Below, in pieces: positions 37,141-46,074 of a stretch of 64,000 nucleotides of DNA (its first letter is position 1; each line of letters starts with the position of its first letter). This DNA is from Roseinatronobacter domitianus. Lineage in GTDB: Bacteria > Pseudomonadota > Alphaproteobacteria > Rhodobacterales > Rhodobacteraceae. A program made the position numbers and the translations under genes. Location of the stretch: assembly GCF_023336755.1 (NCBI RefSeq), contig NZ_JALZWP010000004.1:124001-188000 (forward strand). The letters run 5' to 3'. The notes under the pieces are model-generated. The model searched no databases. It had not been told where the DNA came from and worked only from the letters and a program-made list of their open reading frames with translations.

Positions 37141-37452
37141 ATGCCCGATCCAACTACTTGCACCAACATGGCGCAACTGCGCGTCCAGATTGACCAGATA
37201 GACCGCGAGCTTGTCGCGCTGCTTGCCCTGCGTGCCGCGCATATTGACCGGGCTATTGAATTGAAACCGGGCGAAGGATTGCCCGCGCGGATAGAGGATC
37301 GGGTTAGCGATGTTCTGGACAAGGTCGCGTCGGAAGCGAGCAAGCAGGGTCTGGACCCCGCGCTTGCACGCGCACTTTGGTCTGAATTGATTGATTGGTC
37401 CATCACCCGTGAGGAACGGGTTTTGGGAAGCACAGGAAAGAACACGACATGA
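37141..37452 (+). CDS. Chorismate mutase, AroQ-type
   Basis: A 103-residue all-helical protein with the AroQ pattern: AQLRVQIDQIDRELVALLAL with R-x2-I-D-x2-D, then LRAAHIDRAIELK, IEDRVSDVLDKVASEA and a C-terminal helix WSELIDWSITREE. It would turn chorismate into prephenate, or be a PchB-like relative. It lies between fhs and folD, and its stop overlaps the next ATG (ATGA). aroA is about 3 kb away in another transcript. Confidence 0.82.
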   Translation: MPDPTTCTNMAQLRVQIDQIDRELVALLALRAAHIDRAIELKPGEGLPARIEDRVSDVLDKVASEASKQGLDPALARALWSELIDWSITREERVLGSTGKNTT

Positions 37453-38324
37453 CGGCCACATTGATTGACGGCAAATCCATCGCACAGGCCATGCGCGACG
37501 AGGTTGCGCGCGATGTGGCAGAGCTGGACCGGACCGGATGGGCGCCGAAACTTGTGTCGATCACGGTGGGGGATGGTGCGGCATCTGCGCTCTATGTTCG
37601 CAACCAGCAAAAACAGGCCGAAGCCACCGGCGTGGAATTCGAACAACGCACCTACCCGGCGGAGATTTCGCTTGAGCAACTGACCGGCGTTTTGACTGGC
37701 CTGAACAGCGACCCGCGCGTGCATGGCATTATCATTCAGCGCCCGCTGCCCGCCCATATCCCGGTCAAGGCGCTGCAAAAGGCCGTCCATCCGTTCAAGG
37801 ATGTGGAAGGCATGCACCCGGCCTCTATCGGGAATATCGTCTATAACGATCTGGCACTTGGCCCCTGCACCGCGGTCGCAGCGGTCGAGATGCTGAAAAC
37901 CCTTCCCTTGCAGGTCGAAGGGTTGGACGTGGTGGTGATCGGGCATTCCGAGATCGTGGGCAAACCCATTGCCTTTCTTATGATGGGTCTGGGCGCAACC
38001 GTCACGGTTTGCCACCACATGACACGGCAAGTGGCGGTCCATTCGCGCCGCGCCGATGCGGTTTTCGTGGCCGTGGGCCGTCCCGGACTTGTGACCGGAG
38101 AAATGCTGAAACCCGGCGCGGCGCTGATTGATATCGGAATCAATCGGGTTGATGGCCGCACCGTGGGTGATGCTGATTTCGACAGTTGCGCCGAAGTCGC
38201 GGGCTGGATCACGCCTGTCCCCGGCGGTGTCGGCCCTGTAACCGTCGCCACCCTGCTGAAGAACGCCGTTCTGGCAGCCCGCATGCAAAGAGATCATTAC
38301 GCGGCAAATTACGCCGCCAGTTAA
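37449..38324 (+). CDS. FolD-like protein with altered catalytic residues
   Basis: A 291-residue member of the methylene-THF dehydrogenase/cyclohydrolase family with a typical Rossmann half ([19 protein letters not shown]) and [20 protein letters not shown]. The first half deviates. The catalytic Y-x3-K appears as YVRNQ (Y49, Q53), the Asp of KDVDG is Glu (KDVEG, E120), and the Gln of the substrate motif is kept (IIQRPLP, Q97). Loss of this lysine removes cyclohydrolase activity in studied FolD enzymes, so this protein may be a dehydrogenase only or have another substrate. A canonical folD follows 16 bases downstream. Confidence 0.85.
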
Positions 38325-38340: not shown

Positions 38341-39234
38341 ATGCCTGCCACCCTGATTGACGGAAAAGCCTTTGCCGCACGCGTGCGGGCGAAGGTCGCG
38401 GATCATGTCACACGGCTGCGCGAAGAACATGGGCTGGTGCCGGGTCTGGCCGTCGTCCTTGTGGGTGAAGACCCAGCCAGCCAGGTCTATGTCCGGTCCA
38501 AAGGGAAGCAGACGGCCGAGGCCGGAATGGCATCTTTTGAACATAAGCTGGATGTAAAGACATCCGAGAGTGATCTGCTGGCGCTGATCGCGAAGCTGAA
38601 TGCCGATCCCGAAGTTCATGGAATTTTGGTGCAGTTACCGCTGCCTGCTCATCTGGATTCGGACCTTGTCATCAACAGCATCGACCCGGCCAAGGATGTG
38701 GATGGCTTTCACATTTCCAATGTTGGGCTATTGGGCACCGGCCAAAAGAGCATGGTGCCTTGCACGCCCCTTGGCTGTCTGATGATGCTGCGCGACCATC
38801 ACGGCAGCCTGTCAGGGATGAATGCGGTGGTTGTGGGCCGGTCAAACATTGTCGGCAAGCCCATGGCGCAGCTTTTGCTGGGTGACAGCTGCACCGTGAC
38901 GATTGCCCATTCGCGTACGCGCAATCTGGCAGAAGTATGCCGTGGCGCGGATATTCTGGTCGCCGCCGTCGGCCGACCAGAGATGATCCCCGGCGATTGG
39001 GTGAAACCCGGCGCGACAGTGATCGATGTCGGCATCAACCGCGTGGAGGGTGCCGAAGGCAAGACACGTCTGGTCGGCGATGTGGATTTCGCAAGCTGCG
39101 CCGAAGTGGCGGGCGCGATCACACCTGTCCCCGGTGGTGTTGGCCCGATGACAATTGCCTGCTTGCTGGCCAATACCGTCACCGCCTGCTGCCGGGCGAA
39201 CGGTTTGACCGAACCCGAGGGACTGACGGCCTGA
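38341..39234 (+). CDS. folD: Bifunctional methylene-THF dehydrogenase / methenyl-THF cyclohydrolase
   Basis: A 297-residue canonical FolD preceded by AGGAG. It has the catalytic YVRSK (Y50, K54), [46 protein letters not shown] and [20 protein letters not shown]. With Fhs it interconverts 10-formyl-, methenyl- and methylene-THF. It follows the altered paralogue directly, suggesting duplication and divergence within the operon. Confidence 0.96.
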
Positions 39235-40714: not shown

Positions 40715-42613
40715 TCACGGAAGCAGCTTGGCAACGATCATATCCGCCGCGTCCTCGGCGCTCATCTGCGTTGTGTCAATGCGGATTTGCGGCGATTCGG
40801 GCGGCTCATAGGGCGAATCGATGCCGGTGAAGTTCTTCAACTGACCCGCGCGGGCCTTCGCATAAAGCCCCTTCACATCGCGTTTCTCGGCCTCTTCCAG
40901 CGGTGTATCGATGAAGATTTCGACAAACTCACCCGGCTGCATCATCCCACGCACCATGTCGCGTTCCGACCGGAAGGGAGAGATAAAGGCTGTAATCACG
41001 ATCAGCCCCGCATCGGTCATCAGGCGCGCGACTTCGCCCACGCGGCGGATATTTTCCACGCGATCGGCATCGGTAAAGCCCAGATCCTTGTTGAGCCCGT
41101 GGCGCACATTGTCACCATCCAGAAGGTAAGTGTGCCGGTTCATCCGCGCCAGTTTCTTTTCCACAAGGTTGGCGATGGTGGATTTGCCAGAGCCAGAGAG
41201 GCCCGTCATCCAGAGCACCATCGGGGTCTGGTTCTTCATACCCGCATGATGCTCGCGGCTGATGTCGGTCGCCTGCCGGTGAATGTTCTGCGCCCGCCGC
41301 AACGAGAAATGGATAAGCCCCGCCGCCACCGTGCGATTCGTCATCTTGTCGATCAGGATGAACCCGCCCAGATCACGGCTATCAGAATAGGACGCAAAGG
41401 GAATGTCGCGGTCTACGGTAATATTGGCCACACCGATGGCGTTCAGGTCCAGCGCCTTGGCGGCCAGATGTTCCATCGTGTTGACATTGACCTGATATTT
41501 CGGCTGCGCGACGGTGGCGCCCACGGTCTGCGGCCCCAGTTTCAGCCAATAGGCACGACCGGGGGTCAGTTCGACCTCGTCCATCCAGATAACGGTTGCT
41601 TCGAACTGATCGGCCACTTCCACAGGGTTTTGCGCCGCGCACAGAATTTGCCCGCGCGAGCAGTCGATCTCATCGGCAAGGCAGAGCGTGACCGCCTGCC
41701 CGGCAACAGCTTGCGGAAGGTCGCCATCCATCGTCACGATCCGTGAGATGGTCGATGTCTTGCCCGAGGGCAGCACGCGCACGCTATCGCCCACGGCAAC
41801 CGCACCGGTGGCGATGGTGCCGGCAAAACCACGAAAATCAAGGTTCGGGCGGTTCACCCATTGCACCGCCATGCGGAAGGGTTTGTCCTGCTCGACCGAT
41901 TGGTTCAGCTCGACCGTTTCCAAGTGCTCCAGCAGCACCGGCCCATCATGCCATGGCGTGTTGTCGCTACGACTTGTGATGTTGTCGCCCGCAAGGCCTG
42001 AAAGCGGGATTGCGGTAAACTCGGTAATCCCGATGCTTTCGGCAAAGGCACGGTAATCGGCGACGATTTCCTCATATTTCGCGCGATCATAGCCGATCAG
42101 GTCCATCTTGTTCACGGCCAGCACGATGTTGCGAATGCCGATCAGATGCGCAAGGTAGCTGTGCCGCCGGGTCTGGGTCAGCACGCCTTTGCGCGCGTCG
42201 ATAAGGATGACGGCCAGATCAGCGGTGGACGCGCCCGTGACCATGTTGCGGGTATATTGTTCATGCCCCGGCGTATCGGCCACGATGAATTTGCGCTTGT
42301 CGGTGGCAAAGAAGCGGTAAGCCACGTCAATGGTGATGCCTTGCTCGCGTTCGGCGGCCAGACCATCGACCAGCAGCGCAAAGTCAATGCCTTCGCCTTG
42401 GGTGCCGACACGCTTGGAATCCGCTTCCAAGGTCGCAAGCTGGTCCTCGAAGATCATCTTGCTGTCATACAGCAAACGGCCAATCAGGGTTGATTTACCA
42501 TCATCCACCGACCCGCAGGTGATGAACCGCAGCATGGTTTTGTGCTGGTGAATTTCCAGATATTTATCAATATCTTCCGCAATCAGGGCATCGGTTTTGT
42601 AAATCTCGGACAT
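40715..42613 (-). CDS. cysNC: Fused sulfate adenylyltransferase large subunit / adenylylsulfate kinase (CysNC)
   Basis: A 632-residue fusion. The N-terminal EF-Tu-like GTPase (about 25-450) has [37 protein letters not shown] and [12 protein letters not shown]. The C-terminal APS kinase (about 455-632) has [20 protein letters not shown] and [15 protein letters not shown]. With CysD it activates sulfate to APS, then PAPS. Its start overlaps the cysD stop (TGATG), keeping subunits stoichiometric. Confidence 0.97.
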
Positions 42614-43515
42614 CAGAAATACCCTTCCTGCTTCTTCTTCTCCATGGACGCGGCTTGGTCGTGGTCAATTGCGCGGCCCTGGCGCTCGGATGTGGTGGTC
42701 AGAAGCATTTCCTGAATGATCTGCGGCAAGGTCGTTGCCGTCGATTCCACCGCACCGGTCAGCGGGTAGCAGCCCAGCGTGCGGAACCGGACAGAGCGCA
42801 TGACGGGTTCTTCACCGTTCAGCGGGAAACGGTCGTCATCGACCATCAGCAGCATCCCGTCGCGGATGACCGTGGGGCGTTCAGCGGCGTAATAGAGCGG
42901 CACAATGTCAATATTTTCCAGGTGGATATACTGCCAGATATCCAGCTCGGTCCAGTTGGACAACGGAAACACACGCATGGATTCGCCCTTGGCCTTGCGC
43001 GCGTTAAAGGTGCGCCACAGCTCCGGGCGCTGGCTTTTAGGATCCCAACGATGCGCCGCGGTGCGGAAGCTGAAAATGCGTTCCTTGGCGCGGCTCTTTT
43101 CTTCGTCGCGGCGCGCGCCACCGAAGGCCGCGTCAAACCCGTGCAGGTCCAGCGCCTGTTTCAGCCCTTCGGTCTTCCACATATCGGTATGCAATCCGCC
43201 ATGGTCGAACGGGTTGATGCCCTGTCGCAGCGCATCGGGGTTCTGGTGAACAATCAGCTGCATTCCGGCCTTGCGCGCGGCGGCTTCGCGCATGGCATAC
43301 ATGGCCTTGAATTTCCACGTTGTATCGACATGCAACAGCGGGAACGGCGGTGGAGATGGGTAGAACGCCTTTTTCGCCACATGCAGCATGCAAGCGCTGT
43401 CCTTACCAACGCTATACAGCATGACCGGGTTTTCCGCCTCTGCGACGACCTCGCGCATGATGTGGATGGCTTCGGCTTCCAGTCGCTGCAAATGGGTCAG
43501 GTTGGTCTGTGTCAT
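42613..43515 (-). CDS. cysD: Sulfate adenylyltransferase small subunit
   Basis: A 300-residue CysD with the PP-loop region [40 protein letters not shown] and [19 protein letters not shown]. It forms ATP sulfurylase with the GTPase half of CysNC. First gene of cysD-cysNC, divergent from an HTH regulator across 81 bases. Confidence 0.96.
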
Positions 43516-44510: not shown

Positions 44511-44903
44511 TCATACCCCAACTTCCGGCCCCGGACAGATCAGCGGGCGCGGGCTTTGCTGCACCTCATAAAGCTCGGTTCCCCCCTCCCCCATGAAGCG
44601 GGCATTCAGGCCGTTATCCTCTTGCCAGAATATCCAGCAATGCTCTTCCGAAGGGCGGTCATCATAGACAAAACAAATCTGCTCGCCTCTCGGAAACCAG
44701 CTTCCCTCGCGGCATTCTTCCTGCATGAAAGCCCATGTGGTGCGGCGGCCTTCGCGGAATTCTTCCACCCCATAGGCCTGCCCCTCAAAGCCAAAGGTCA
44801 GGGTGCGGCCGGTGACATAGGCCTCGAACTCGGCTGCGGTCATGGGGGTTTGCGCCTGCACAGGCAGCGACAGCACCATAAGCGCAATCAAAAGACGGAT
44901 CAT
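44511..44903 (-). CDS. Small secreted protein of unknown function
   Basis: A 130-residue protein with a signal peptide (about 1-18, ending PVQAQ). The mature part has aromatic-rich strands (AYGVEEFREGRRTTWAFMQE) and four cysteines (ECREGSW, QICFVYD, EHCWIFW, LICPGPE), which may form two disulfides. No named family is recognised. It overlaps the preceding AlkB-like gene by ATGA, so the two are probably expressed together. Confidence 0.72.
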   Translation of the reverse strand: MIRLLIALMVLSLPVQAQTPMTAAEFEAYVTGRTLTFGFEGQAYGVEEFREGRRTTWAFMQEECREGSWFPRGEQICFVYDDRPSEEHCWIFWQEDNGLNARFMGEGGTELYEVQQSPRPLICPGPEVGV

Positions 44904-45934
44904 ACACCCTCCATCCGGGCCAGAACCCTGTCGACCCGCTTATCCATCAGTTTGAACCACAAGGGCGGCACAAGCGCAATGACCCCCATGGCGGGCAGCG
45001 AATAGGGCAACACCGGCATCTCGTCGGGCAAGCGCAACGCCGGGTAAACCCGGCCCGGATTGCCGTGGTGGTCGGAATGGCGCGAGGCATTGACCATCAT
45101 ATGCGACGAAAACCAATGCGGGCTGTTCCAGCTATGGTGGATGGTTTGCGGCGCATAAGACCCATCTGCCCGCTTGCGACGCGCCAGACCGTAATGTTGC
45201 AGGTAATCCACCATCGCCAGTTGCGATTGCGCGTAAAAGCACAGGCCCAGATAGGCCAGCACGCCAGCCAGCCCAAAGATCAGGTAGGCCGCGATCAGGA
45301 AAACCAGCGCGCCGCCGACATACTCGATATAGGGGTTCATCCGCCCCGTGCGCGCGGCACGTTCGCGTTCCACAGCAAAGCCATGGGTAAAGCTACGCAC
45401 CCAGCCGCGCGGGAAATAGCTGTAAAAACTGCGGCCCTTGGGGGGGAAGTTCGGGTCCAGCGGTGTCGCCACATGGGCATGATGCAACAGTCGGTGCGCC
45501 GTGGTGTGGTGCCCGTAAAGCATCGATATATAGACCCATTTTCCAAGGCCAAACAGGCCCGCGCTGCTGCGATGGATCAGCTCATGCGCGTTGGAATTAC
45601 TCACCTGACCGAAAAACAGCCCAAAGCCGAAAAAGGCCAGAACGCGCTCCAGCGTGGTCAGGTCGGTCACGCCCGCAACTGCCGCCACGCCCAACGGGAT
45701 GAACGCCAAATGCGCAACGGCCAGCACGACCGACAGACGGTTTGCTGCGCGCTCAATGCTGTCCTCCGCGCCCTCGCGGCTGGCCATGCCCAAGGCCTCG
45801 TCCAACCCGAACGCAAAAAAAGAGGTGTAAAGCGCCGCCGCCCAAAGCCACAGCCCACCCTCGAACGTGCCGACCGTCAGCAGCAGAACCGGCGGAAGGC
45901 TGGCGAGGGCAAAGGGCAGGACCGGGTGTTTCAT
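44900..45934 (-). CDS. AlkB-type alkane 1-monooxygenase / membrane diiron hydroxylase (paralogue 2)
   Basis: A 344-residue membrane enzyme from the ATG at 45934 (MKHPVLPFALASLPPVLLL). Histidine boxes are HELIHRSSAG, HRLLHHAHVATPLDPNFPPK and ASRHSDHHGNPGR, plus LQHYGLARRKRADGSYAP and a HHSWNSPHWFSSH segment. These define the AlkB family of diiron hydroxylases. It has a second homologue at 21424-22563 that differs in the LQHYG versus EHYGL box. Substrate unknown; electron partners are not in the window. Confidence 0.88.
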   Translation of the reverse strand: MKHPVLPFALASLPPVLLLTVGTFEGGLWLWAAALYTSFFAFGLDEALGMASREGAEDSIERAANRLSVVLAVAHLAFIPLGVAAVAGVTDLTTLERVLAFFGFGLFFGQVSNSNAHELIHRSSAGLFGLGKWVYISMLYGHHTTAHRLLHHAHVATPLDPNFPPKGRSFYSYFPRGWVRSFTHGFAVERERAARTGRMNPYIEYVGGALVFLIAAYLIFGLAGVLAYLGLCFYAQSQLAMVDYLQHYGLARRKRADGSYAPQTIHHSWNSPHWFSSHMMVNASRHSDHHGNPGRVYPALRLPDEMPVLPYSLPAMGVIALVPPLWFKLMDKRVDRVLARMEGV

Positions 45935-46074
45935 GGCGCGACAACCTAATAAGTTGCACTCAAGATAGCACGGTTGCGCCTGACTGCCATGCGACCTGTT
46001 GCAATGCCCCGGCATCTTTCCCTTCGGCGCGCAATACGTTAGCTCTGTCTGGGAACAATCAGGGCGCGGATCGC

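Follow-up and report, generated by a model that had tools for sequence, protein, structure and literature searches.

Why does a bacterium keep, beside a canonical folD gene, a second one whose product lacks the catalytic lysine of the family? The question is raised by a window of 64,000 nucleotides from Roseinatronobacter domitianus, in which a gene cluster opens with fhs and runs through a gene for a chorismate-mutase-family (CM) protein into two folD genes (Table 1). The product of the first folD gene, here called Q-FolD, contains the motifs Y49-V-R-N-Q53 and K-D-V-E120-G. An earlier note had read these as replacement of the catalytic lysine by Gln53 and of an aspartate by Glu120, next to a gene with YVRSK and KDVDG motifs, and alignment to FolD of E. 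coli MG1655, which places Gln53 at Lys54 and Glu120 at Asp121, bears this reading out.

Table 1. Features of the fhs-folD gene row, in window positions.
Feature	Positions	Strand	Evidence or correspondence
fhs, formate--tetrahydrofolate ligase, 557 aa	35328..37001	+	PF01268 1.3e-265; NF010030 916.6 bits vs cut-off 652
CM_2 chorismate-mutase-family protein, 103 aa	37141..37452	+	PF01817 2e-19
Q-FolD, 291 aa, ATG to TAA, Gln53/Arg98/Glu120/His166/His190	37449..38324	+	PF00763 and PF02882 complete
Gln53 codon	37605..37607	+	aligned with catalytic Lys54 of E. coli FolD, Lys56 of human MTHFD1
Arg98 codon	37740..37742	+	aligned with Leu99 of E. coli FolD; adjoins conserved Gln97
Glu120 codon	37806..37808	+	aligned with Asp121 of E. 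coli FolD, Asp125 of human MTHFD1
Canonical FolD, 297 aa, YVRSK and KDVDG	38341..39234	+	NF010785 515.4 bits vs cut-off 396

The end of the CM gene overlaps the start of the Q-FolD gene by four bases (ATGA), and 16 bases separate the latter from the canonical folD gene; this spacing suggests a single transcript. The canonical FolD is presumably the source of cyclohydrolase activity in the window, and the CM_2 protein stays under the cut-off of each NCBIfam model listed. Scans for promoters (one promoter-like site vs 1.4 expected), terminators and tRNA genes (none) gave nothing useful. Further along the window, inspection of the open reading frames by eye revealed CysN/C-like and CysD-like sulfate-activation genes (40715-42613 and 42613-43515) and an AlkB-like membrane hydroxylase gene (44900-46015).

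Q-FolD matched both FolD domains over their gathering scores (PF00763, 3.3e-33, span 1-115 of 115; PF02882, 4e-56, span 1-159 of 160), while none of the 25 NCBIfam models shown (30 matched) reached its cut-off, the best being NF010786 with 300.2 bits vs 421. The predicted structure (pLDDT 85.4, pTM 0.82) has the FolD/MTHFD fold, with human MTHFD2 (6s4e) as best Foldseek match (TM 0.86, 41% identity over the alignment); the model is poor at residues 123-136, beside the active site, and side-chain geometry was not read from it. Q-FolD is a member of the FolD superfamily without those defining features of bifunctional FolD that we examined.

To place the two substitutions in the family, we typed 221 distinct FolD sequences at the positions of E. 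coli Lys54, Gln98 and Asp121, counting identical strings once and requiring an alignment of about 240 residues (this excluded partial sequences, L039 and L112 among them, and one species may recur via two collections). There were 115 sequences with Gln-Gln-Glu (Q/E type), 104 with Lys-Gln-Asp (canonical K/D type), two of a divergent K/D type with Lys-Glu-Asp, and none of mixed type; loci fetched later agreed (46 Q/E, 41 K/D and one cut E. coli fragment). Lys54 to Gln and Asp121 to Glu thus occur together in all 115 Q-type sequences and neither occurs in any of the 104 canonical ones, so that the substitutions are not random in close relatives; randomness there was named in the earlier note as grounds for refuting its reading. 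Altogether, thirteen alignment columns split the two types almost completely. The Leu99 place holds Arg in 115/115 Q-type sequences and Leu, Phe or Ile in 104/104 canonical ones; other separating columns are Phe123 to Met, Pro143 to Ala, Gly145 to Ala, Arg to His at human position 173 and Ser to His at human position 197. The equivalents of Tyr50, Gln98 and Gly122 are invariant in both types alike, the Tyr and Gln of the dehydrogenase step being present in 115/115 Q-type sequences, and the cofactor loop GHSxIVGKP is common to the 37 rows of the family alignment. In the human enzyme, the residues named as key for the substrate are Tyr52, Lys56, Gln100, Leu101, Asp125 and two glycines (PMC3368264); their equivalence to Q-FolD positions was assigned by alignment.

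This pattern can be set against mutagenesis of the same residues. The K54N variant of E. coli FolD retains about 19% of the dehydrogenase activity and has no detectable cyclohydrolase activity (PMC5688156), and human Lys56 has a mainly binding role in the dehydrogenase step (PMC9173628). By analogy with the E. coli mutants, Q-FolD would have lost cyclohydrolase activity. Because Gln is found in every relative typed, the dehydrogenase residues are kept and a cyclohydrolase partner lies beside, a dehydrogenase-only enzyme is the best reading, and we consider it probable that Q-FolD is dedicated to dissimilatory methyl-group oxidation, as a 5,10-methylene-THF dehydrogenase deficient in cyclohydrolase activity.

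The active-site changes could also be taken as signs of a pocket that still performs both reactions, with Arg98, together with Glu120, replacing Lys54 by a relocated charge; that Lys to Gln, Leu to Arg and Asp to Glu are fixed together in 115/115 sequences is as expected for compensating changes. An arginine in the lysine's place would, however, remain charged. The lysine is held unprotonated for catalysis (PMC3368264), the K54N mutant lacks detectable cyclohydrolase (PMC5688156), and the other FolD or FchA that accompanies Q-FolD in 74 of 76 genome entries (see below) would be needless. We therefore regard a bifunctional Q-FolD as unlikely.

The phylogeny for which the earlier note had called resolved the Q/E proteins as one group on a long stem. 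In a tree of 67 rows, a branch supported at 100/100 set 36 Q/E representatives apart, their stem measuring 1.44 changes per column, and 30 K/D representatives lay together (98/90); the split that separates the Q group was recovered in 100% of 200 bootstrap trees. The tree was rooted by midpoint only, and the long, divergent L156 branch meets the Q group, its own place being unsure. Given this separate branch, Q-FolD is not a local copy of its neighbour. The median dN/dS was 0.159 for Q-type and 0.148 for canonical sequences (pairs are not independent, and single pairs reach 0.698), which argues that Q-FolD is kept by selection; the Q/E family as a whole is under purifying selection. We discarded local duplication or decay as an origin of the gene on the grounds of the 100/100 separation from all canonical FolDs and the low dN/dS. 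The only broken Q-FolD copy noticed has a frame change (genome G190). The description of Q-FolD as a paralogue beside a canonical FolD thus holds as to the adjoining gene but not as to a local origin: the protein belongs to an old family linked to methyl-group catabolism.

Q-FolD is uncommon but widely spread. It was present in 37 of 295 genomes of Rhodobacteraceae, in 23 of them (the source genome included) at about 78-100% identity, in one at 67% and in 13 at 54-63%; the alignment showed the Gln in 36 and the Glu in all 37, the 37th being L039 of G190, split by the frame change, whose N-terminal part was not aligned. When named genomes were scanned, at least 502 relatives matched, and the best 80 of these came from Rhodobacterales, Kiloniellaceae, Hoeflea, Fodinicurvata, Inquilinus, Gammaproteobacteria, a SAR324-titled bin and Kiritimatiellales. 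A Q-type profile of 23 sequences, applied with a strict limit of E 1e-90 that we set ourselves, matched 15 of 398 genomes of Pseudomonadota and 3 of 115 genomes of Kiritimatiellota, the phylum of the Kiritimatiellales genome. Two matches, L053 (84% identity; bin titled Exiguobacterium profundum) and L115 (63%; titled Mycobacterium sp.), are alphaproteobacterial-like, and their titles are probably wrong. Rhodobacterales harbor two separate Q lineages, a main one with the order fhs-(CM)-Q-folD and a second one found partly near Tdm or beside folD-fhs. G179, of the same genus as the source, has fhs-CM-folD without Q-FolD in between, so that gain or loss of the Q-FolD gene is clean.

If Q-FolD carried out only the first step, a second enzyme would have to open the methenyl ring. 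We searched 76 Q-positive genome entries (the source genome plus sets of 27 and 48), which represent at most 75 genomes, G302 and G054 having the same coordinates and being the same genome. A second full FolD was present in 70 of the 76; 68 of these were K/D (one in the source genome, 22 in the 27-set and 45 in the 48-set), and two, both in Inquilinus-like genomes, were of the divergent Lys-Glu-Asp type with FchA beside. In the typing of the second FolDs, two rows had a gap at position 54, the cut L112 and a spurious frame at L105. Counting three gene tails at contig ends, another FolD was seen in 73 entries, and another FolD or FchA in 74. The bin G319 has FchA without a second FolD, and in the draft bins G301 and G314 neither a second FolD nor FchA was found, which is unexplained. 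G153, G002 and G190, in which Q-FolD is the sole PF02882 match and FchA is absent, were dismissed as counter-examples: in each, a canonical FolD immediately upstream of Q-FolD is cut by the contig end, with its last residues readable, so these are assembly gaps. The source genome has two full FolD genes by PF02882 matches, Q-FolD and the canonical one, and no FchA was found in it. Since FchA occurred in only 3 of the 53 Q-positive entries examined for it, the usual partner of Q-FolD is canonical FolD. Because canonical FolD is near-universal in such bacteria, co-occurrence by itself is weak evidence, and the FchA case and the adjacency of the genes are more telling.

The contigs of G153, G002 and G190 (L236, L237 and L238) come from three different genera and all break inside the canonical FolD gene beside Q-FolD. 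Repeated fhs-folD copies may collapse in assembly and so explain these breaks; repeated fhs copies are described for Ruegeria pomeroyi (PMC4744692). The divergent FolDs next to FchA in the Inquilinus-like loci L156 (2471-3427) and L157 (749-2383) keep Lys and Asp, have Glu for Gln98 and are possibly a third FolD type.

The gene order in the main clade could suggest a physical partnership, as the genes for Q-FolD and canonical FolD lie side by side, or almost, in 23/23 loci and FolD is known as a dimer (PMC5688156); Q-FolD might then regulate canonical FolD or serve it as a structural partner, for instance in mixed dimers, without catalysis of its own. Yet the dehydrogenation residues and the glycine-rich cofactor loop are retained, and many genomes have the two genes at distant places or on separate contigs. 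We consider a purely regulatory or structural role very improbable.

The neighbours of the gene provide hints to its pathway. Of the 23 main-clade loci, 22 have fhs upstream of Q-FolD and all 23 have canonical FolD after it; 13 contain a CM gene, which separates fhs from Q-FolD in 12 of them and comes after Q-FolD in L018. The CM gene also occurs in G179, which is without Q-FolD. G275 carries the fhs-CM-Q-folD row twice (L024 and L042), about 288 kb apart and with equal match scores, and no exact match was found over the 2,900 bases compared. Outside the main clade, we inspected 27 loci from the named-genome scan (the main-clade locus L105 was left out), checking selected proteins and counting without a null model, and recognised C1 or demethylation neighbours within about 6 kb in 12 of the 27. 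They comprise type III glutamine synthetase with glutamate-synthase-like parts of the N-methylglutamate pathway (L096-L099), glutamate-synthase-like parts with fhs (L118), sarcosine oxidase with fhs and FolD (L110), GcvT-domain oxidoreductases (L106 and L108; L106 also with a Rieske oxygenase), trimethylamine N-oxide demethylase with fhs and FolD (L100), and MetF-like and Fhs genes (L114, L119 and L123), L119 having corrinoid-protein-like and activase-like genes further on. SoxA, Tdm and type III synthetase scored over curated cut-offs, and the corrinoid and activase proteins, which scored under them, were named by resemblance. A Ponticoccus plasmid has the order fdhF-fhs-folD-Q-tdm. The informative neighbours are genes of folate-dependent demethylation.

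This association has its limits. No C1 neighbour was recognised in 15 of the 27 loci outside the main clade, nor in the g312 genus (which has glycolate-oxidase-like neighbours), L178, L179 or Paracoccus aminovorans, and K-type FolDs are found in sarcosine oxidase operons too (Paracoccus yeei). Within the family, neither Fhs (35/37 Q-positive vs 33/37 Q-negative genomes) nor PurU (6/37 vs 8/37) separates the groups, the 37 Q-negative controls having been chosen by us among genomes at least 95% complete, not at random.

The neighbours also bear on the idea that Q-FolD is no methylene-THF dehydrogenase and, with a rebuilt pterin pocket, acts on another one-carbon carrier or folate derivative. Fixed changes at or next to pterin contacts (Leu99 to Arg, Asp121 to Glu, Phe123 to Met, Pro143 to Ala and Gly145 to Ala) and the long family stem would fit such a change of substrate, but the informative loci contain THF enzymes (Fhs, GcvT-domain demethylases and MetF-like proteins), Glu retains an acid at the pterin-binding place, and the Tyr and Gln are retained. 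A different carrier is in our judgement improbable. Among the three explanations put forward in the earlier note, the dehydrogenase-only enzyme is thus best supported (by K54N, the invariant Tyr50, Gln98 and Gly122, and a partner in 74/76 entries), the regulator lacks support, and the other carrier is weakly open through the changes at Leu99, Asp121 and Pro143.

Beyond the window, the source genome encodes Tdm, two SoxA (sarcosine-oxidase alpha) proteins, a GcvT-domain dimethylglycine-dehydrogenase-like protein and a type III glutamine synthetase with glutamate-synthase-like proteins, as well as a partial trimethylamine monooxygenase (Tmm; 559.6 bits vs cut-off 675), its gene being cut by the stretch examined. 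There is one fhs and one PurU. Because it carries several demethylation systems, the organism should, as far as its genes indicate, have the means to transfer the methyl carbon of several methylated amines to THF. In R. pomeroyi, Fhs is needed for methyl-group oxidation (PMC4744692); without both fhs copies, growth on choline is impaired and there is none when glycine betaine is the only source of carbon. The authors of that study hypothesize that NADH and ATP are gained when methylene-THF is oxidized through Fhs.

We suggest the following sequence for a dehydrogenase-only Q-FolD. Folate-dependent demethylases (Tdm, sarcosine oxidase, dimethylglycine-dehydrogenase-like enzymes and the N-methylglutamate pathway) would load carbon as methylene-THF, which Q-FolD would oxidize to methenyl-THF with NAD(P)+, perhaps NAD+. 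Without the lysine, Q-FolD would not open the methenyl ring efficiently, and the adjoining canonical FolD (FchA in one genome) would convert methenyl-THF to 10-formyl-THF, from which Fhs, or PurU where present, would release formate. Here, we infer the direction of the reaction, the preference for NAD and the division of labour. The use of NAD+ is plausible and is the weakest step. The 2'-phosphate of NADP is held by Arg173, Ser197 and His196 in the human enzyme (PMC3368264), and Q-type proteins have His at the Arg173 place (100%, rounded) and in 113/115 at the Ser197 place, which makes NAD+ use plausible. However, E. coli FolD, an NADP enzyme with Ala and Arg at these places, is also without that Arg, which weakens the cofactor argument, and Q-type proteins are without the acidic residue typical of NAD enzymes. 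Two further points speak against a dehydrogenase-only Q-FolD: canonical FolD is already a dehydrogenase, so that, barring a difference in cofactor or kinetics, nothing explains why a second one is needed, and Arg98, which may pair with Glu120, is gained in the proteins without the Lys and might partly stand in for it.

On a wider view, which we put forward tentatively as possible rather than probable, the Q/E family would be a distinct, widely spread dissimilatory class, in which a coordinated rebuild of the active site (Lys54 to Gln, Leu99 to Arg, Asp121 to Glu, Pro143 to Ala and two His at the cofactor phosphate site) produced an NAD-linked dehydrogenase. The FolD steps would be split between paralogues, and methyl oxidation would run on a cofactor pool apart from biosynthesis, as an independently evolved bacterial counterpart of yeast Mtd1 beside Ade3. 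These proteins are publicly annotated as 'bifunctional 5,10-methylenetetrahydrofolate dehydrogenase/5,10-methenyltetrahydrofolate cyclohydrolase' (records of Ponticoccus and Paracoccus aminovorans), and metabolic models copy this name. If Q-FolD performs the first step only, reconstructions of how methylamine, TMAO and glycine betaine are oxidized have to assign separate tasks to two FolD paralogues, and the enzyme bears on where bacteria consuming methylated amines gain NADH or NADPH. For the lysine and aspartate that have been mutagenised in FolD of E. coli and humans, the family is also a natural experiment, and the changes fixed along with them can be tested singly.

Our searches of the open-access literature found no description of a lysine-less FolD subfamily, and the available portions of PMC13390433, PMC9870897 and PMC12478193 describe no second FolD. 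Compared with bifunctional FolD, as in E. coli or the paralogue at 38341-39234, Q-FolD shares the two-domain fold, the family, Tyr50, Gln98, Gly122 and the PGGVGP motif, but is without Lys54 and Asp121, has Arg for Leu99 and His at human Arg173 and Ser197, and forms a separate branch. In principle, monofunctional FolDs are known, examples being Clostridium perfringens FolD and yeast Mtd1. C. perfringens FolD is reportedly dehydrogenase-only, with the cyclohydrolase (FchA) as a separate protein, in work attributed to Aluri and colleagues in 2016; a dehydrogenase-only Q-FolD would be similar but differs in that its partner is nearly always canonical FolD, not FchA. Human MTHFD2 has an oxidative methyl-to-formate role in mitochondria. 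It differs from Q-FolD in keeping the lysine (Lys88; PMC9173628), and it is bifunctional. The nearest functional analogue of the role proposed for Q-FolD is yeast Mtd1, although it is far in sequence and of another subfamily: PDB entry 1edz, which we take to be Mtd1, was the weakest of 27 matches (E 2.7e-12 vs 1.6e-72 for the FolD structure 4a5o). In yeast, Mtd1 acts as an NAD-dependent monofunctional methylene-THF dehydrogenase beside a bifunctional NADP enzyme in one cell.
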